Source: Nanobdellota archaeon | GTDB taxonomy: Archaea > Nanobdellota > Nanobdellia > Woesearchaeales > UBA9642 | Direction of reading: 5' to 3' | Assembly (NCBI GenBank): GCA_021813435.1 | Contig: JAKAKR010000008.1 | Coordinates: forward strand, 62,001-126,000 | Length of the DNA stretch: 64,000 nucleotides | In this document: in pieces, positions 2,894 to 17,031 of the stretch | How positions within the stretch are numbered: position 1 is the first letter of the stretch | Layout of the letters: each line of letters starts with the position of its first letter | The notes under the pieces: generated by a model | Told to the model about the DNA's origin: nothing | The model's database searches: none | What the model saw: only the letters and a program-made list of their open reading frames with translations | Made by a program: the position numbers and the translations under genes

Positions 2894-3051
2894 TAGATTT
2901 ACTCATTCACACATAGAGTCATTTTCCACCAAAATAGAGTAATGTATAGTGTCACCCTGCAATAGTTTCCACATGTCATTAAGGGGTTATTTCTAGCACA
3001 CCAGTATACAAATTTGTGATTTTTAGGGGTTAAAACGTACAATTATATCGC

Positions 3052-3110
3052 TCCATAAGAAATAAAGGTTCGTCACCTCGATATCACAACATACCTTTAT
3101 TTCCGATGGA
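3052..3110. repeat. Imperfect inverted repeat of ORB-like elements upstream of tbp
   Basis: TCCATAAGAAATAAAGGT (3052-3069, + strand) and reverse complement TCCATCGGAAATAAAGGT (3093-3110); 16/18 identical, 23-nt spacer. Confidence 0.8.
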
Positions 3111-3130
3111 ACTTGAGCACAAACAACATC

Positions 3131-3187
3131 ATTTATAAATAACCTCCTCTTTCCATTTATAAATCACTCTTTTAAATAACGGGGGTT
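3131..3187 (+). promoter_or_regulatory. tbp promoter/leader: duplicated ATTTATAAAT TATA-like box plus GGGGGTT SD-like motif
   Basis: ATTTATAAAT at 3131-3140 and again at 3155-3164; GGGGGTT at 3181-3187, 5 nt before ATG 3193. Confidence 0.6.
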
Positions 3188-3192
3188 ATACC

Positions 3193-3789
3193 ATGGCAAA
3201 AAAACCAACCAAGAAGGCAAAAAAAGCTTCAAAAGAGCAAGAGGTCAAGAGCGGAGAGACTGATTTACAGATTGTAAATATTGTCGTCAGCTCATCACTT
3301 GAACACAGCATCCCGCTTGAAAAGATGGCAGCAACACTCAGCAATACTGAGTATAATCCTGAACAATTCCCAGGACTGGTTATTCGCATCCGCGATCCAA
3401 AGACCAGCGCACTGATTTTCAGTTCAGGAAAGATTGTCTGTACTGGCGCGCGTTCAATACAGAAGGTTGAAGAGTCAATCCAGAAAATCATTGAGAGCCT
3501 GCAAAAAATCGGCATCAAGATCACTATCAAGCCAAAGATCACCATCCAGAACATGGTTGGCGCAGGATCCATCGGATTCCCATTGAACCTGAACATGCTT
3601 GCAATGAAGCTGCCCAACACTGAATACGAGCCAGAACAGTTCCCCGGACTTGTCTATAAACTCATTGAGGCAAAGGCAACATTCCTCTTATTCAGCAATG
3701 GAAAAGTGGTATGTACCGGTACAAAGTCTGAAGAGGATGCACGCGCAGCACTTTCAAAGCTTGTGGTAATCCTTAAGAAACTGCAATAA
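3193..3789 (+). CDS. tbp: TATA-box-binding protein
   Basis: Two direct TBP repeats (LSNTEYNPEQFPGLVIRIRDPKTSALIFSSGKIVCTGARS / LPNTEYEPEQFPGLVYKLIEAKATFLLFSNGKVVCTGTKS); basic N-terminal tail. Confidence 0.98.
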   Translation: MAKKPTKKAKKASKEQEVKSGETDLQIVNIVVSSSLEHSIPLEKMAATLSNTEYNPEQFPGLVIRIRDPKTSALIFSSGKIVCTGARSIQKVEESIQKIIESLQKIGIKITIKPKITIQNMVGAGSIGFPLNLNMLAMKLPNTEYEPEQFPGLVYKLIEAKATFLLFSNGKVVCTGTKSEEDARAALSKLVVILKKLQ

Positions 3790-3836
3790 ATTATTTTTTA
3801 TATTTATTTTCATATATGTTGGGTGCGGGGGTTGTG

Positions 3837-5852
3837 ATGGAGATTACTGAACAGATCGAGAAATTTTACGAATTCTTCGAATTGAGTTACAAGAATCCGC
3901 TCCATGAGGCAATCGCCAAAGGAGAAAAACACCTTACTGTTAACTTTAGCGATCTTGGAAAGTTCAATCTGGAACTTGCGCAGGAACTCATTGAAAATCC
4001 TGAGGATACTATAAAGGCTGGAGAGATTGCAATAGAGCGATTTGATTTTCAGAACGCCAAGGAGTTTAGGCTTCGGTTCCGTAATCTTCCGAAGACTCAG
4101 CAGTATGCGGTCCGCAATATCCGCAGCAATCATCTCAATAAATTCGTGCAGATTATGGGCATTATCAGACAAAAGTCCGATGTAAGGCCGCAGGTCACGA
4201 GTGCAAAATTTGAATGCCCGAGTTGCGGGGCAACTATGAATGTACTGCAGCTTGATACAAAATTTCGCGAGCCGACAAAATGCGGGTGCGGTCGGAAGGG
4301 AAAATTCCGATTACTCAGCAAAGAGATGATTGATGCGCAAAAGATCGTCCTTGAAGAGGCGCCTGAGGACCTTGATGGGGGAGAGCAGCCCAAACGTATT
4401 GATGTATTTCTCAAAGGGGATCTTGTAAGTCCCATGTCTGAAAAACGCACTAATCCTGGGAGCAAGAATATCATTACTGGAGTGTTAAAGGAAGTCCCAA
4501 TCATTGCGCGTGACGGCGGAAAGCTTACCCGTTTTGATCTGATGATCGAAGCCAATTATATTGAACCGCTCGCTGAAGACTTCACTGAACTTAATATCAC
4601 GCCTGAAGAAATCAAGGATATCCAGGAACTCAGCGAGGATCCTAAACTGTTTAGAAAACTTATCAACTCCATTGCGCCTTCCATTTACGGTCACGAAAAA
4701 GTCAAGGAAGCACTCATCCTCCAATTATTCGGCGGTGTACGCAAGGTTAAGGATGATGGTTCAATCAATAGGGGAGATATTCATGTCCTGCTTATCGGAG
4801 ATCCTGGATCTGGAAAATCGCAAATGCTTAAGCGCATCTCTGTTGTTGCGCCAAAGAGCAGGTTTGTTTCAGGAAAAGGCGCAAGCGCTGCAGGTCTTAC
4901 CGCAACAGTTGTCAAAGACGAATTCCTGAGAGGTTATGCCTTAGAAGCAGGAGCACTGGTCTTGACGAATCGCGGCATTTGCTGCATTGATGAGCTTGAC
5001 AAGATGACTAAAGAAGATACGAGCGCAATGCACGAGGCGCTTGAACAGCAGACTATCTCTATCAATAAAGCAAATATTTCTGCAACACTGCGTGCAGAGA
5101 CCACAGTTCTTGCTGCGGCAAACCCGAAATTCGGGCGGTTCGACCCCTATGAAATGATTCCCAAGCAGATTGAATTGCCGTCAACACTCATCAATCGTTT
5201 TGACCTCATCTTCCCGATAAGGGATATCCCTGACAAGGGCAAGGATGCAAAGACTGCTGAATTCATATTGCAACTGCACCAGAAGGCATCAGGCGGATCT
5301 GCAGAGATTGATACTTCGATGCTCAAAAAATATATTGCATATGCAAAGCAGCATATCAATCCGCAACTCACGGATGCAGCGCTCGAAGAAATCAAAGAAT
5401 ACTATGTCAAGATGCGCGCCACCGGTGAAGAGGAAGGAACATTCAAGGCAGTGCCTATCTCTGCACGCCAGCTTGAAGCGCTCATCCGATTGAGCGAAGC
5501 ATCTGCGCGCATGCGACTCAGCTTAAAGGTGACTAAACCTGATGCCAAACGTGCAATTGAACTCGTCCACTTCTGTCTGACACAGATCGGTGTTGATCCC
5601 GAGACTGGAAAAATTGATATTGACAGAATTGCAACAGGTATCAGCGCGTCACAACGCAGCACGATCTCGCTCATCAAGGAGATTATCCACGAACTCGAAA
5701 CGCAGATCGGAAAACAAATCCCTGTCGACGACATAGTGATGAAGGCCAAGGATAAGGGACTGGATGAAGAAAAGACTGAAGAAATCCTTGATCGGTTGCG
5801 AAAAGCAGGCGACATCTTCAGCCCTAAAAGTGGGTTCATCAGCAGGTTATAG
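3837..5852 (+). CDS. mcm: Replicative DNA helicase MCM
   Basis: Walker A GDPGSGKSQMLK, Walker B CIDELDKM, arginine finger region LINRFDLIF, zinc motif CPSC...CGCG; start set at ATG 3837 after GGGGGTT (GTG 3834 also possible). Confidence 0.97.
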   Translation: MEITEQIEKFYEFFELSYKNPLHEAIAKGEKHLTVNFSDLGKFNLELAQELIENPEDTIKAGEIAIERFDFQNAKEFRLRFRNLPKTQQYAVRNIRSNHLNKFVQIMGIIRQKSDVRPQVTSAKFECPSCGATMNVLQLDTKFREPTKCGCGRKGKFRLLSKEMIDAQKIVLEEAPEDLDGGEQPKRIDVFLKGDLVSPMSEKRTNPGSKNIITGVLKEVPIIARDGGKLTRFDLMIEANYIEPLAEDFTELNITPEEIKDIQELSEDPKLFRKLINSIAPSIYGHEKVKEALILQLFGGVRKVKDDGSINRGDIHVLLIGDPGSGKSQMLKRISVVAPKSRFVSGKGASAAGLTATVVKDEFLRGYALEAGALVLTNRGICCIDELDKMTKEDTSAMHEALEQQTISINKANISATLRAETTVLAAANPKFGRFDPYEMIPKQIELPSTLINRFDLIFPIRDIPDKGKDAKTAEFILQLHQKASGGSAEIDTSMLKKYIAYAKQHINPQLTDAALEEIKEYYVKMRATGEEEGTFKAVPISARQLEALIRLSEASARMRLSLKVTKPDAKRAIELVHFCLTQIGVDPETGKIDIDRIATGISASQRSTISLIKEIIHELETQIGKQIPVDDIVMKAKDKGLDEEKTEEILDRLRKAGDIFSPKSGFISRL

Positions 5853-5904
5853 TGCTACGCACAACAGGCGTATCTCAAGATAAGAAGTAGTGAGTGGAGA
5901 AATC

Positions 5905-6549
5905 ATGGTTGAAACAAAGACCACGGACATTCGAAGACAAACCGCATATAAATGCAGTATTCGCGATCTGACTAATGGAGTATTTGTCAAGAAGGAAGGG
6001 TGGGAGTCTAATTATGTTATGACGGATTATGGCGATTTCTCCCGTGTTAATGTCATCGGGGTCATTGTCTCAAAGGAAAATTCCAACTTTATCCTTGACG
6101 ATGGTACCGGCACCATGAGTTGCCGGATGTTTGAACAGAATGTAGCGCTTGAGGGATTGGCTGTCGGCGATGTGGTACTTACGATTGCGCGACCGCGCGA
6201 GTATAATGGCCAATTGTATCTTGCAAGCGAGATCGTAAGAAAGATTGATAATCCTGCATGGATCGCGTATCGCAAGAAGGAATTGTTACTGCTCAAAAAA
6301 GTTCGTAATGTACAGGAACTGCGTGGTCCTGCGGCAAAAGAGCCAGTACTGGTCGAAAGTTCAAGCACGACAAGTTCTAAGGAACGTATTCTAAAACTTA
6401 TCAGCGAGATTGATGATGGAAGTGGCGCGAGTATTGATGATGTGGTGCGGCTTTCCAAGATCCGGAATGCTGAAGAGATCATCACTGATCTGCTTTTGAA
6501 AGGGGAGATTTTTGAGATCAAGGCGGGCCGGGTCAAGATGATGAATTAA
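5905..6549 (+). CDS. OB-fold single-stranded DNA-binding protein (RPA32-like)
   Basis: RVNVIGVIVSKENSNFILDDGTGTMSCRMFE...GDVVLTIARPREYNGQLYLASEIVRKI OB-fold followed by a C-terminal winged-helix-like segment; adjacent to mcm; ATG at 5905 (MVETKT). Confidence 0.8.
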   Translation: MVETKTTDIRRQTAYKCSIRDLTNGVFVKKEGWESNYVMTDYGDFSRVNVIGVIVSKENSNFILDDGTGTMSCRMFEQNVALEGLAVGDVVLTIARPREYNGQLYLASEIVRKIDNPAWIAYRKKELLLLKKVRNVQELRGPAAKEPVLVESSSTTSSKERILKLISEIDDGSGASIDDVVRLSKIRNAEEIITDLLLKGEIFEIKAGRVKMMN

Positions 6550-8806: not shown

Positions 8807-11800
8807 TTATCCGAACCACGCGCCAAGTCCTGTCTGCGTTTCCTGTTCTTTACCAAAATAGCTTTCAATGCGCTGTTTGGTAAGATCAATGGTTTGTTTA
8901 AGATATGCTGGAATGTTAAACTTGTTTCCAAGACTTATGGTCGGCTCAAGATATTTGATGATGCTTCCTTCAGAGATAGTGAAGATGAGTTTGCTGCCGC
9001 ATTTTGCGCATTTACCCTGCAACGGCGGTCTGCGATATTTCTCGTTGCAATTTGCGCAGCGGAATTGTTGCGTACTAAACTTTCTCAGATTACCTTTGAT
9101 ATCACGAATAAAATGTTTCTCAATGACAAGACGCGCGACATCACCACTATCCACTGCGCGGATGCGCATGGCAAGATCCATCTGCCCCATCAGCTTTTCC
9201 TCCATTGAGGGAAGCAGCTTGTATTCTGAGCAGAGTACTCCGGCGTTGAAATCATCAGTGTCGTGCGTAAAGCCCATGCCTTCGTATTGCAGCGGCGTTC
9301 CGATGTGCCGTCCCATCCGATTAATCTTTACTGTTGATGGCGAGGTATACTCACTTGCGGCCTTATAGAATTCGAGTGGATAACGCCATCCGATATCGAT
9401 GTCAAAGACCATATCATCAACTTCTGCAGGGTTAAGGATATAAGTGAGTACGAGCGGCGCGTCCATGGTGGCTCCGCGTTTGTCTGAAAGGTATTGTGTG
9501 GAAAAATTAAGTAACCCATCAAGCAGAAGGAAGATGCAGGATTCATCCCCATCAGCGTCACGACGCATTGCGGCATGAAACATTGGATGCGCGAGGAATC
9601 CTTGTGTTTTGGAAAATCCTACAATACGTCCCAGTATTCCGGCCGAGGTGTGCGGCGCAAGTCCGATGACAAATTGTCCAACAAGATCATCCTTTGATTG
9701 GAGCCGATAATACGGCTTGAGACCATATACTTGTTCCAGAAGTTCATCGATAAATTTTGTAATGCGAAACAGTACTTCGTCGGCCGGCTCTTCCGGAGAG
9801 TCAGGACAGCAAGGCAGAAGGATATCCTGCGGCTTTATTTCAAGTATCTGCTCCTCACTCTCAAGAGGCCTGCCTTTGGTGTCTTTAGTATAGCCGAGTT
9901 TGCGCAATCGCTCGACGCTGACGCGCACTTCTTTGGGCTTGAAATGAGTGATAGGTATTTCTGAGATATCATAGCGGGTTGTTCCGTCTTTGTTGACTGC
10001 AATATTATATTTTGCACGCAGTATTCCTTTAATGAGATGCTCGGGGATATGCGCCTTGTTTGCCGTACCACGGATCCCTTTGATGAGATCTGGATAGATT
10101 TTAGTGTCTAATTTCTTGAGTAACGCAGTAAAGATTGCATTGATATCAATCGCGCTCTCCCGCGAGGGGAGTTTGGGATGACCGGGATGAGTACAGCTTG
10201 TCGATTGGCATTCTTTGCAATACTGGAGCTGTTTTGTTTTCCTGTCGCATGATTCACAGACTGCAAAGACAGTCTCCTTCTTGCAGCGCTCGCAGTAATA
10301 GATAGGGAATTGTGAAGTGACTTTTCCTGCCTGCATTGCAGTCTGGAATGAACGGAGTTTTCCACCCTCATCACCCACAGGAAAGAGCGTATGCGGCTGC
10401 CCCGCCAGTTTGCGCATCTTTGCTTTTTCCGGCCTGCCCATGCGCGCTCCAATAAAGACTCCTGCTTTGTCCCGAATAGGGAATGGCGCAATCTTATTGA
10501 TGATTTGAAGGATGTGCTCAGATTCCTTCCCTTCCTCAGGCGCAGTATCTGCGATGATTTTGCGGATTGCGGCAATATCCTCTTCGAGAATAATCTCGTG
10601 GATGTTGAGTGTTGCGATAAGCGCTTCAGCATGGTCGGTCTCTATGACCACAAATTCGTTGTTTACAAAAAGATGCGGGACACCAAGAAGCTCTAATGCG
10701 CGCTTTGCATCATTTTTTGGAAGGATGATCTTTTCAATGCGATTGTCGGGTTTATTGTCATAGCGAAGAATTTTTGCAGTCGCAAACCAATCAATAAAAT
10801 CCCTCAGGTCATGCACATTAATTGAACGCCAAAAGAATGTGTACGCAGGATGAAGGGGTATGGTAAGTTTTTTGCTGATCTCGACTGCTGCCTCGCCTGA
10901 GATTTTTGTCTTTAATGGCCTGCGGAAGAGTATCTCGAGTTTTTCTTTCGGGATTTTTAAGTATTCTGCTAGTTTTTCGAGATCAATCCGGCGATAGGGT
11001 TGCACTGTTTGTCCTTGCGCTTCGATAGCATTTATCTCGTCGAGAACTTGCGGCGACGCCGGGAATTGTGTTATTGCTGCGGCCTCCAATTCCTGGATCC
11101 AGTACTCTTGGCAATAACCCGGTGGCGCTAAAAGATGGTTTCTGTTGTAGAAGTCGCCGAATGATACGAGAATATCGCCGAGGTAAAGTATTTCCTTGAC
11201 TTCTTTTTTATATTGCTTTGCCAGCGCCTCTGTTTCCAGAAAGACTACGCTTCCATTATATAATTTTGCAATAGGACCATCGATACTGTCGCAGGAGGTT
11301 ATCGCTGTCGCCTTACCGGGACGTTCGACCTTGAGTTGTGTTGCGATTGCAATATAATTATTGAGCAGGTGCATTGTCGCCGGATGTAATGATTGCGCAG
11401 AATATCCCGAAACCCTGCCGCGTCCATAGCGGAGTCGGAATGCGCCATTGCGCAACGGATAGCCTAAAACCGGTCGTCCAGCGACAAGATCCTTGATATA
11501 AGTATAGTCCGGAGTGATCTTTGCATGGACATCGGATGTTTTTTTCTTATGCGCCTTTGCTGCTTTCTGAATATGCAGGTATTCCTCAAGGAACATCCAA
11601 TCATCCATATCAAAATCCTTACCCCACTTCCCTATCTGTTTCCATAACTTTGCTGCCTTGAGCGGAATACAATCAGTGTAGAGCAAGCAGAATCCGCTCC
11701 GGATAAGATTTGTCGGAACACGAGGGAGGTCTTTATAGTTTGCAACTTCAATACGCTCGCTCTCTTCGGCGCCAATCTGCACAGGGACATGTTGCATGAG

Positions 11801-12454
11801 AAAATCAATCTCTTCCCTGCTGGGGAAATATTGTCGCGGGCTGATGCGGGTGTGATAATCCTCTATTTCTGCATACGTGCGCTTTGTTTCCAGTTCTGTG
11901 GCGTCATATTTTGCGTAGCCAAACTTTTTTCGGACATAATCTGCAATAAGTACGCATACTGCTGCGGCTGTTCCTCCGGCATTACGGATTGGTCCTGAGA
12001 AATTGATACAAAAATATTGTCCCTGTTTATCCATGCGATCAACAATATCGATATGAGTAAATCCTTCAATAGGGCTTGAAACTACACCGACAGTAACATA
12101 TGCAAAACCCGTACGGATCCCGACTTCCATCGCCTCTTTGTTATCTTTGAATGTACAGAATTTTTCCTGCGCGATCTCTTCGGCAATCTTGAAAGCGACA
12201 CGCCAATCCAGCGTCCCATATTCTTTTTCGAGTTCAGTGATACGCTTGACTGCGCCAGAATTCTGGAGTTGCGGCGCAACTACTGCGATAAGACCGATGA
12301 CGCGCTCGGCCATATTCTTTGCAAGGATAATGTCGGGCTTTTCTGAATAATCATACCCTTTTTTTCTTGCTTCTGATGCAATCTTAAACTCTCTAAAACA
12401 GCCATCTTCCAATTCGTCAAAATATTTTTGCATCTCCTTGCTGCATTCAACCAT
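8807..12454 (-). CDS. polC: DNA polymerase II (PolD) large subunit DP2, intein-free
   Basis: About 1215 aa; AHPMFHAAMRRDADGDES catalytic motif, zinc-finger cysteines (CERC...CESC; CANC...CAKC); start likely MVECSKEMQ at 12454. Confidence 0.97.
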   Translation of the reverse strand: MVECSKEMQKYFDELEDGCFREFKIASEARKKGYDYSEKPDIILAKNMAERVIGLIAVVAPQLQNSGAVKRITELEKEYGTLDWRVAFKIAEEIAQEKFCTFKDNKEAMEVGIRTGFAYVTVGVVSSPIEGFTHIDIVDRMDKQGQYFCINFSGPIRNAGGTAAAVCVLIADYVRKKFGYAKYDATELETKRTYAEIEDYHTRISPRQYFPSREEIDFLMQHVPVQIGAEESERIEVANYKDLPRVPTNLIRSGFCLLYTDCIPLKAAKLWKQIGKWGKDFDMDDWMFLEEYLHIQKAAKAHKKKTSDVHAKITPDYTYIKDLVAGRPVLGYPLRNGAFRLRYGRGRVSGYSAQSLHPATMHLLNNYIAIATQLKVERPGKATAITSCDSIDGPIAKLYNGSVVFLETEALAKQYKKEVKEILYLGDILVSFGDFYNRNHLLAPPGYCQEYWIQELEAAAITQFPASPQVLDEINAIEAQGQTVQPYRRIDLEKLAEYLKIPKEKLEILFRRPLKTKISGEAAVEISKKLTIPLHPAYTFFWRSINVHDLRDFIDWFATAKILRYDNKPDNRIEKIILPKNDAKRALELLGVPHLFVNNEFVVIETDHAEALIATLNIHEIILEEDIAAIRKIIADTAPEEGKESEHILQIINKIAPFPIRDKAGVFIGARMGRPEKAKMRKLAGQPHTLFPVGDEGGKLRSFQTAMQAGKVTSQFPIYYCERCKKETVFAVCESCDRKTKQLQYCKECQSTSCTHPGHPKLPSRESAIDINAIFTALLKKLDTKIYPDLIKGIRGTANKAHIPEHLIKGILRAKYNIAVNKDGTTRYDISEIPITHFKPKEVRVSVERLRKLGYTKDTKGRPLESEEQILEIKPQDILLPCCPDSPEEPADEVLFRITKFIDELLEQVYGLKPYYRLQSKDDLVGQFVIGLAPHTSAGILGRIVGFSKTQGFLAHPMFHAAMRRDADGDESCIFLLLDGLLNFSTQYLSDKRGATMDAPLVLTYILNPAEVDDMVFDIDIGWRYPLEFYKAASEYTSPSTVKINRMGRHIGTPLQYEGMGFTHDTDDFNAGVLCSEYKLLPSMEEKLMGQMDLAMRIRAVDSGDVARLVIEKHFIRDIKGNLRKFSTQQFRCANCNEKYRRPPLQGKCAKCGSKLIFTISEGSIIKYLEPTISLGNKFNIPAYLKQTIDLTKQRIESYFGKEQETQTGLGAWFG

Positions 12455-14324
12455 GTGCGCCCTCCGCAAGATCCTCTGCTGGTGGCGTGAGTGTGCCGGA
12501 TTCTTTTTCCTGGTCTTCGCGTGAAAGGAAATTCATGACCTTTACTTCACGTGTCTGCATATTGATGATGAATGCGCGCGCAGGCTGCGCTTCAAGCCCT
12601 CGCCTTTCCTGTTCTTCAGATTGGGAGACCCAACAGCTTGCGTTGATGCAGGTCACGTTGCGATAATTGCTGACTGATGCGCGGTGGATGTGTCCTGAAA
12701 AAAAGAAGTCTGGGACTTTTTCCAGCGCAAGATAATCTTTTTTAGGGTCAGGAATAAACAATGACGATGCGTGGGTTGGTGCAAGATGTCTGCGTTGCAA
12801 TAGATAGCGCATGATAAGATCAGGTCTTTTTTGCGCTCCTTTCTGACGTATGGCGGGCACTTGTTCAGAATAATAAGGGAATGAATACCCGTGGTAGAGT
12901 AGTACGTTAAACCCGTCGAATCCCTGTTCTGGCTTCGCGTAAATATTGATGATTGCAGGATTTCCCACTGGGATAACATTAGGAATTACAGTAAGCGAGC
13001 GCGTATACTCATCGTCGAATGCGGGTTGCGGTTCACTGATGCGGCCCACGTCGTGGTTTCCGGGTGAGATAATGATTGGGATATGTGTTGGGATTTTTTT
13101 GATAAGTTCAGCAAACCCTTTATACTGGTCATAGATATCAATCACACTCAAATCATATTCTTGATTGGGGTAGATTCCGACACCGTCGACAAGATCTCCG
13201 GGAATAAAAATATACTTGACGTTCGCAGCGATCTCGCGTTGCGCCTCATTTCCACTCTCTCCACGAATCCATGAGATAAATTTCTTGAATTCCTTCTCAA
13301 GAAAGAGTTTACTGCCATATTGCGTGTCTGCAATCACGACAAAATATCCTTCCTCAGGACTTTTTTTTAGCTCTTTGGTGAGGGGGATATCAGGGTAAAG
13401 GATTGTATTTGCAAATATAATATTATCATACATCCCGACCACGCCGATGACTTCATCTAACTGTACTTCCTCTGCAAGTTTATAGAGTTCCTCTTTACTC
13501 TGACTGACCACTACCCGTACACTTCCTGTAGGATCCTCAATAGTGAGCATGATATTTTTATTTTTTGTCAGTGATTTCTCATAGACTGCTCCGATGATTG
13601 CAATATTCTCGCGATCTTTTTTTCCTACCAGGCGTCCGATTGACGTAAGATTTTGCAGTTCCTGACGTCCACGCAAGATACGTTCCAGATCGCGGAATCG
13701 TACGGTATAGTAGTTGACAAAATCCTGGACCGTACGCTTTCTGCTCTTCTCATCATAGGACATCACAATCTTAAGTTGGTTTTTTTTCATAAACTCTTCG
13801 CGGTAGGTTTTTAATTCCGTAGAATTCATCATCACCGCATCTGATTGCGGTATTGTTTCATGTTCAACTATAGTATGTGCAAGCGGTGCTATTGAAGAAT
13901 TTGCAATTGTTGCCGTTGTTTGTGGTGCGGCAGGTTCGATAGGTAATTTTAATGGAATATCTTGTCGTTTAGATTGCACGGTTTTTTGCGCCTGAATATA
14001 TTCCACAAATCGATCATATAGTTTTGTATTGAGATATTTTTCTTTTAGGACAATGGATTGTTCAAAATCATCCTGCGTAATAGGGATCTTATTGTTGATA
14101 ATATCGAGCACCTCGGCCGTAATGACTGTAAATGTTGTTTTGAAAGGTATGGTTAGGGATTCGAGCTGTTCTACTAGTGTTGGACTAATAAGTACCCCCT
14201 GTTCAAGGTAGAATTGCATTATTTCGCGGGTTGTGGCGCTCATAGTATGATCCAAAATGATGGTTTGTCTGTCAAGACTAACGATACGGTAAATGTTGTT
14301 ATAATAAATTGAACGAGTTCTCAA
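12447..14324 (-). CDS. polB: DNA polymerase II (PolD) small subunit DP1
   Basis: OB-fold plus phosphoesterase motifs (FIPGDLVDG, ISPGNHDVGR, FFSGHIHRASV); the start may be internal (MSATTREIMQF at 14243). Confidence 0.94.
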   Translation of the reverse strand: MRTRSIYYNNIYRIVSLDRQTIILDHTMSATTREIMQFYLEQGVLISPTLVEQLESLTIPFKTTFTVITAEVLDIINNKIPITQDDFEQSIVLKEKYLNTKLYDRFVEYIQAQKTVQSKRQDIPLKLPIEPAAPQTTATIANSSIAPLAHTIVEHETIPQSDAVMMNSTELKTYREEFMKKNQLKIVMSYDEKSRKRTVQDFVNYYTVRFRDLERILRGRQELQNLTSIGRLVGKKDRENIAIIGAVYEKSLTKNKNIMLTIEDPTGSVRVVVSQSKEELYKLAEEVQLDEVIGVVGMYDNIIFANTILYPDIPLTKELKKSPEEGYFVVIADTQYGSKLFLEKEFKKFISWIRGESGNEAQREIAANVKYIFIPGDLVDGVGIYPNQEYDLSVIDIYDQYKGFAELIKKIPTHIPIIISPGNHDVGRISEPQPAFDDEYTRSLTVIPNVIPVGNPAIINIYAKPEQGFDGFNVLLYHGYSFPYYSEQVPAIRQKGAQKRPDLIMRYLLQRRHLAPTHASSLFIPDPKKDYLALEKVPDFFFSGHIHRASVSNYRNVTCINASCWVSQSEEQERRGLEAQPARAFIINMQTREVKVMNFLSREDQEKESGTLTPPAEDLAEGAHG

Positions 14325-15504: not shown

Positions 15505-15521
15505 ATAAACCCCGACGAATA

Positions 15522-15545
15522 GTTTCCAGAAGAAATAAGGGTTAT
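15522..15545 (+). promoter_or_regulatory. ORB-like element A
   Basis: GTTTCCAGAAGAAATAAGGGTTAT immediately upstream of cdc6. Confidence 0.6.
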
Positions 15546-15590
15546 ATAAATATTTCTAGATTTTAATAGTCGTGTTCGAGTATAGATGCC

Positions 15591-15612
15591 ACCCCCTCAT
15601 TTCTTGTGGAAC
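15591..15612 (-). promoter_or_regulatory. ORB-like element B, inverted relative to A
   Basis: Reverse complement reads GTTCCACAAGAAATGAGGGGGT, close to the recalled archaeal ORB form with a terminal G-string. Confidence 0.65.
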
Positions 15613-15729
15613 TTTTTTTATTCAGACAGGTTTTTTTGTTCAAAATCTCATTATGCACATTAAAATTCATTTGTAAAATAAGTCAAAAATAGCCTTTAAA
15701 TACAGAAATAGTCTTAAAAAGAGATTTGT

Positions 15730-15822
15730 TTATTTACTACAAAATATATTTTGTATTATATATTCTTTAATTTATTTTATTTATTATATATTATATATAT
15801 TTATTTTCTATATAGTAAATAA
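15730..15822. repeat. AT-rich block bracketed by a 10-bp inverted repeat, containing an 18-bp perfect palindrome
   Basis: TTATTTACTA (15730-15739) / TAGTAAATAA (15813-15822); TACAAAATATATTTTGTA at 15738-15755. Confidence 0.75.
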
Positions 15823-16056
15823 TGATATAATAATAATCAAAAAAAAGAAGTAGAAAAAGAAAAAAAAGAAAAAATAGTGATTGAAAAAAAATAATAGTGA
15901 ATAAAAGAACAGAAGTAAAAAGATAAGAAGAAAAGAAAAGATCGACGGAAAATAGGGAAAATTCTAAGAAAATTTTGGATAGACTGATATGATACTACTC
16001 TAAAAAATTGTAGTTCAAAAGCAGATATTGAAATACTCATTAATCTCATCAACATG

Positions 16057-16080
16057 ATTCCATGAGAAATAGTGGTGTCT
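16057..16080 (+). promoter_or_regulatory. ORB-like element E
   Basis: ATTCCATGAGAAATAGTGGTGTCT matches TTCCAnnnGAAATAnnGG. Confidence 0.45.
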
Positions 16081-16239
16081 CCTTATTTGATAATGCTTTT
16101 CTGTGCAATAATCATATTATTTAGTTTTCACTCAATAATAGCAACAAAAACAGAACATTTATAAATTAATCTCACTTCCCCATGGTAACATAATTCATTC
16201 GACGGTTCATATTATAATAAATCGTTGGGGGTTGCAAAA

Positions 16240-17031
16240 ATGATCGTACAGCAAGAATTGATAAAAAAAATCAAGGATTTTGGCCTAAACAGCTATGAAG
16301 CAAAAATTTGGACTGCACTGCTTTCACGCGGAGTATCAAGCGCCGGAGAGCTTTCAGAAATCTCCAATGTGCCGCGTTCACGAACTTACGATGTTCTCGA
16401 ATCCCTTGAAAAGAAAGGATTTATTATCATGAAACTGGGAAAGCCTATAAAATATATGGCAATCCCGCCTAGCGAAGTTATTGAACGCGTAAAAAAGAAG
16501 ATCAAGGATGATTCGTTAAAACAGGAAAAACAGATTGATGAACTAAAAGGATCAGATGTTCTTGCTGAATTGACTTCACTGCACACCACAGGTATTGACA
16601 CTGTCGAGCCAAGCGAACTTGCAGGAGTCATCAAGAACCGAGAAAATATCTATAATCACATGGACCTTATGATCAAAGGCGCAGAAAAATATGTTTATAT
16701 CATGACTTCTGAGAAAGGATTCTTGCGCAAGATTGAGCGTCATAAGAAGCTGTTCAAAAAGATGGCTGATACTGGCGTCAAGATCAGAATTGCAGCACCA
16801 TTGAGTAAGGATATGGAAAAGGCAAATCCAGAACTCAAAGGGATTGTTGATTATAAGAATGTTTCAGGAATCAACGCGCGATTCATCATAGTCGACGGTA
16901 AGGAGATGCTCTTTATGGTCACTGACGATGTTGATGTGCATCCATCCTATGACTCTGCAATGTGGATTAATAGTCCGTTCTTTACTGGCGCAATGAAAGA
17001 GCTCTTCGAGCTTGCCTGGAAGAAGAATTAA
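16240..17031 (+). CDS. TrmB-family transcriptional regulator, paralog 1
   Basis: FGLNSYEAKIWTALLSRGVSSAGELSEISNVPRSRTYDVLESLEKKGFI HTH and TrmB effector-type C-terminal domain; paralog at 50484-51302. Confidence 0.9.
   Translation: MIVQQELIKKIKDFGLNSYEAKIWTALLSRGVSSAGELSEISNVPRSRTYDVLESLEKKGFIIMKLGKPIKYMAIPPSEVIERVKKKIKDDSLKQEKQIDELKGSDVLAELTSLHTTGIDTVEPSELAGVIKNRENIYNHMDLMIKGAEKYVYIMTSEKGFLRKIERHKKLFKKMADTGVKIRIAAPLSKDMEKANPELKGIVDYKNVSGINARFIIVDGKEMLFMVTDDVDVHPSYDSAMWINSPFFTGAMKELFELAWKKN

Follow-up and report, generated by a model that had tools for sequence, protein, structure and literature searches.

ORB motifs upstream of orc1/cdc6 and of tbp-mcm: a probable chromosomal origin and a possible initiator circuit in a Nanobdellota archaeon

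Is the intergenic region upstream of orc1/cdc6 in this Nanobdellota archaeon the origin from which its chromosome is replicated, and could the ORB motifs found there also act in transcription? The region lies in a window of 64,000 nucleotides, the whole stretch of DNA that was analysed, and the features discussed are collected in Table 1. In a literature search, in which subscription journals were thinly covered, no paper describing a DPANN replication origin was met, and no account of ORBs before tbp-mcm. The locus supplies a testable candidate origin for this kind of archaeon.

Table 1 Features of the candidate origin, its neighbourhood and the tbp-mcm cluster (positions are those of the window)
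Feature	Position	Strand	Remarks
ORB4, upstream of tbp-mcm	3051..3074	+	24.2 bits
ORB5, inverted partner of ORB4	3088..3111	-	23.8 bits; 21 bp before first TATA-like box (3132)
TBP gene	3193..3789	+	Pfam TBP 1e-62
MCM replicative helicase gene	3816..5852	+	Pfam MCM 9e-92
OB-fold protein gene, RPA-like by context	5890..6549	+	Pfam OB-fold 2e-5, under curated cut-off
PolD large subunit DP2	8807..12469	-	Pfam PolC_DP2 domains
PolD small subunit DP1, downstream of cdc6	12447..14324	-	Pfam Metallophos, DNA_pol_E_B
orc1/cdc6, Orc1-1-type initiator, 401 aa	14299..15504	-	Pfam Cdc6_C, Cdc6_lid; TIGR02928 398 bits
Intergenic region with candidate oriC	15505-16224		bounded by orc1/cdc6 (-) and divergent TrmB-family gene (+)
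ORB1	15524..15541	+	22.1 bits, genome rank 5; position same in most relatives; abuts cdc6 TATA box
cdc6 TATA box (TTTATATAA)	15542..15550	-	TATA beside ORB1 recurs in relatives
ORB2 with G-string (TTCCACAAGAAATGAGGGGGTGGC)	15588..15611	-	30.6 bits, genome rank 1
AT-rich candidate unwinding region	15612..16057		80.5% AT by composition
Near-palindrome TTTTCTATATAGTAAA (consensus TTTWCWATATWGWAAA, 16 bp)	15804..15819		between ORB3 and ORB2
Purine-rich tract	15836..15955	+	85% purine, with the window's longest purine run; T-rich on cdc6-sense strand
ORB3	16058..16081	+	25.2 bits, genome rank 2; opposite orientation to ORB2, on the other side of the AT-rich region
TrmB-family regulator gene, divergent, bounds origin	16225..17031	+	Pfam TrmB 9e-22

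An initial annotation of this DNA had proposed a replication origin next to orc1/cdc6, with three inverted ORB-like motifs. All three were found where it had put them, to within one or two bases: TTTCCAGAAGAAATAAGGG starts at 15523 (15522 had been given), GTTCCACAAGAAATGAGGGGGT lies on the minus strand at 15591-15612 and ATTCCATGAGAAATAGTGG at 16057. The first two form an 18-nt inverted repeat that is 89% complementary, with 52 nt between them. The A+T block and purine-rich tract described with the motifs do exist, but both are situated between the second motif and the third, not between the first and the second. The presence of GAAAT in the motif had been taken to indicate a lineage-specific ORB. 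The consensus of the relatives, TTCCAnAGGAAATnAAGGGGTG, is near-identical to the published common ORB, TCCA[CG]T[TG]GAAA[TC][GA]AAGGGGT (PMC4164010). As GAAAT is already permitted in this published sequence, that label was overstated, and the motif belongs with the ordinary ORB variants.

The recognition-helix stretch TQRRVSD and the wing GRYG[KR]T are kept in the Orc1/Cdc6 encoded beside the region and across relatives. The closest solved chains were 2qby_A (E 6e-98) and 2v1u_A (E 4e-88), which we take to be the structures of Orc1-1 of S. solfataricus and ORC1 of A. pernix on origin DNA. Both of these Orc proteins have been solved in complex with origin DNA (PMC9738581). A second Cdc6 paralogue in the genome (contig C2, 353 aa) has neither the TQRRVSD nor the GRYGRT stretch, and the genome-wide matrix scan described below found no strong ORB near it. 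The cdc6-DP1-DP2 neighbourhood is as at known euryarchaeal origins.

A matrix of 24 positions was built from 60 sites in the cdc6-upstream regions of relatives. The regions were drawn from 30 loci collected across the genome itself and its relatives, and the Nanobdellota genome was left out of the matrix. When the whole assembly (16 contigs, 1,411,830 bp) was scanned, exactly five sites scored at least 18 bits, namely ORB1 to ORB5 of Table 1, and the sixth-ranking site scored 15.8 bits. Three of the five make up the cluster upstream of cdc6, and the other two are 12.5 kb away, before tbp-mcm. In a first-order Markov control of 6 million positions, equal in length to about 2.1 genomes, only one site exceeded 18 bits, with a maximum of 19.9. 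An Infernal profile, in the build of which the genome's own sites were included, returned the same five sites and no others at E values up to 10. The motif is thus not at background frequency, and the ORB cluster upstream of cdc6, which supplies three of the only five sites that reach 18 bits in 1.41 Mb with a matrix made from relatives alone, is not due to chance.

Conservation was tested independently on 21 further relatives outside the matrix build. An ORB of at least 18 bits was present before cdc6 in 19 of the 20 that have at least 100 bp of upstream sequence, and the motif is thus kept upstream of cdc6 in relatives. Genomes of the same order gave 132 profile matches at E ≤0.01, a count that is not independent, as part of those genomes supplied sites to the profile: 64 of these matches fall in the first 1 kb before cdc6, 38 precede tbp-mcm and the remaining 30 are elsewhere. 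All but four of the last group (26 of 30) are on contigs with neither cdc6 nor mcm (e.g. G057 C22:8043), and these strong matches may be broken origins or further targets. The contig ends within ~720 bp upstream of cdc6 in 10 of the 30 loci (L007, L008, L010, L011, L012, L014, L018, L020, L032 and L033), so breaks in assemblies tend to fall at this origin.

Read in the orientation of cdc6, the order of elements is ORB3 (inverted), a T-rich tract, a palindrome, an AT-rich tract, ORB2, the TATA box, ORB1 and cdc6. Between ORB3 and ORB2, which are inverted to each other, is the stretch of highest AT content in the window. Its richest 120 bp reach 92% AT, the window maximum, the best value elsewhere in the window being 81%, and the A/T-only run of 42 nt at 15766-15807 is the window's longest.

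The consensus of the palindrome was first read off the sequences of relatives and tested afterwards. It has one exact match in the 1.41 Mb genome. With at most one mismatch it occurs in 32 upstream regions, in 31 of which an ORB lies on the cdc6 side and in 26 an inverted ORB on the far side. Among the 21 held-out loci, 17 have enough sequence and 11 of these contain it. In 17 of 25 cases the palindrome falls in the middle fifth of the interval between the ORBs; the random expectation is 5.4 and none of 20,000 simulations gave as many. A switch from T-rich to A-rich sequence at the palindrome was seen in 18 of the 32 regions (random positions gave a mean of 6.2 and a maximum of 15). A recognisable ORB or palindrome is missing in a few relatives.

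The evidence from GC skew for an origin at cdc6 is supportive but mixed. In G015, a relative with a single contig of 1.30 Mb, the cumulative skew is lowest at ~0.69-0.76 Mb, cdc6 being at 0.764 Mb, and highest near 0.14 Mb, about half a genome from the minimum; this skew was taken from about half the length (20 kb per ~40 kb), with one 20-kb stretch masked. In G003, which is of the same genus as the archaeon studied, cdc6 is at 128 kb; the skew is negative to the left of the gene (60-120 kb) and positive to its right (140-200 kb), and positive again at 20-40 kb. No skew switch was seen at cdc6 in G019. The window's own contig, one of the 16 of its genome, has no skew minimum and shows a weak local cumulative maximum instead.

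Several lines of sequence evidence converge on the intergenic region: the ORBs, the AT-rich stretch, the palindrome, conservation, the PolD neighbours, the type of initiator and the skew of G015 and G003. Because of this convergence, the region is in all probability the chromosomal oriC of the archaeon, for which gene content and genome size suggest a DPANN, perhaps Woesearchaeales-like, affiliation. The origin proposed by the initial annotation is supported, therefore, by the rarity and conservation of the motif, with skew mixed; the tbp-mcm ORB cluster and the palindrome in the middle of the DUE were missing from its picture.

At the tbp-mcm cluster, two TATA-like boxes, at 3132 and 3156, precede tbp, and ORB4 and ORB5 are upstream of both, unlike ORB1, which is between the TATA box and its gene. 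A site of at least 15 bits was present upstream of tbp-mcm in 21 of 30 genomes. An inverted ORB pair with the identical 37-bp offset is found in three same-genus loci, and several other relatives have direct ORB pairs ~81-86 bp apart upstream of tbp-mcm. A degenerate ORB at 2967-2990 (+, 12.0 bits) lies 84 bp before ORB4, which is the direct-pair spacing of those other relatives. The tbp-mcm upstream region is 66% AT with no extreme AT stretch, and no palindrome match was found in it. The mcm match is split inside a single long open frame (>1000 aa) in G002, G026, G032, G049, G058 and others, which suggests inteins.

Points 12.5 kb apart are inseparable by skew, and it could be proposed that the working origin is the tbp-mcm cluster and not the cdc6 intergenic region. 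That cluster has fewer ORBs than the cdc6 region and neither a DUE-like AT stretch nor a palindrome, and this placement of the origin is scarcely credible. It could also be that the motifs at both places are only operators of a transcription regulator, Orc1 or another protein, with the origin elsewhere, since ORB1 abuts the cdc6 TATA box and an ORB stays upstream of tbp-mcm even where this cluster and cdc6 share a strand. However, ORB2 and ORB3 with the AT-rich region and the palindrome in its middle form an origin-like structure far larger than an operator, and the skew of G015 and G003 puts the origin at the cdc6 locus. A purely regulatory role for the motifs is very unlikely.

A further possibility, which competes with the favoured account only where tbp-mcm is concerned, is that the ORBs there serve replication and not transcription, either as the remote half of a bipartite origin or as an Orc1-titration site. 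The distance between cdc6 and mcm is ~4-17 kb in most genomes of the same order, the two genes being convergent in 33 of 50, and this closeness would fit such a role. So would the other orders of the class, in which 9 of 15 genomes have a second strong ORB at a distance of 4-11 kb, on the upstream side of cdc6 (G064, G070, G087, G134, G142, G153, G167, G170, with the ORB at C1:213498, and G195, with the ORB at C15:31791). An assignment of this second ORB to TBP or MCM was rejected, as its position is away from both genes. There is also a precedent in Haloarcula, where an ORB-rich region that follows cdc6E has been proposed as a site of titration (PMC3936714). In the order studied here, however, the site stays ~130-350 bp before TBP whatever the arrangement of the island, and the tbp-mcm region is without an extreme AT stretch or a palindrome match. 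A replication role for these ORBs therefore seems less likely than transcriptional control of tbp-mcm.

By homology with studied archaeal origins, Orc1 from the adjacent gene would bind ORB2 and ORB3, which flank the AT-rich unwinding region, and would direct the loading of MCM there, leading to bidirectional replication. Another factor probably binds the palindrome in the middle of the region, in the way that ucm is bound by UBP in Sulfolobus. A conserved Orc1-type site near a promoter is present at both cdc6 and tbp-mcm. As ORB1 separates the TATA box of cdc6 from the likely transcription start, bound Orc1 should repress its own gene. Orc1 would also bind the two tbp-mcm sites and may couple the supply of TBP and MCM to the level of the initiator, with either sign. 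These transcriptional steps, autorepression and control of tbp-mcm, are suggested by the positions of the sites and are given a little less than an even chance.

It is tentatively proposed that throughout the order Orc1 may directly switch the transcription of its own gene, TBP and MCM, acting through the same ORB motif as at the origin, and that the palindrome may mark a second origin-binding protein. If this is true, the level of the initiator sets both the firing of the origin and the supply of a general transcription factor and the helicase. The analysis thus offers a palindromic origin element that is new, together with a simple circuit by which the initiator might control itself, TBP and MCM. 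According to a recent review, the mechanism that limits archaeal initiation to once per cycle is not understood for Sulfolobus (PMC7617429).

The arrangement resembles oriC1 of Sulfolobus (orc1-1, ORB3-DUE-ORB2), where inverted ORBs also surround an AT-rich region beside an Orc1-1-type gene, and where a short conserved motif, ucm, bound by UBP, likewise lies about midway between the ORBs (PMC12141716). The sequences of ucm (within GCTTGGTTTAATTATACAAACTCAATATTT) and of the palindrome are unrelated, and no match was found by eye between the palindrome and the ucm oligonucleotide printed in that paper. The distance between the ORBs exceeds that in oriC1 and varies more, being 92-526 bp in relatives. 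Islands of cdc6 and PolD genes at archaeal origins are already known (PMC2643942), and in Pyrococcus oriC, as at the present locus, ORBs immediately precede cdc6, and DP1 and DP2 are close by (PMC4010727, PMC2643942). Here, however, the island is closed by tbp-mcm with ORBs of its own, whereas for Thermococcales the DP1 gene itself is reported to contain additional ORB and mini-ORB repeats. Haloarcula hispanica, with oriC2 and oriC2D, likewise has a second cluster of ORBs close to an origin (PMC3936714). There, oriC2D follows directly on cdc6E, contains 11 ORBs and has been proposed to act in titration, while here two ORBs are 12.5 kb off, before tbp-mcm. The binding of promoters, including their own, by proteins of initiator families is known for Sulfolobus Orc1-2 (PMC9738581) and bacterial DnaA (PMC8203912). 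Orc1-2, however, is a non-initiator that binds another hexamer, whereas here a single ORB motif marks both the candidate origin and the promoters.
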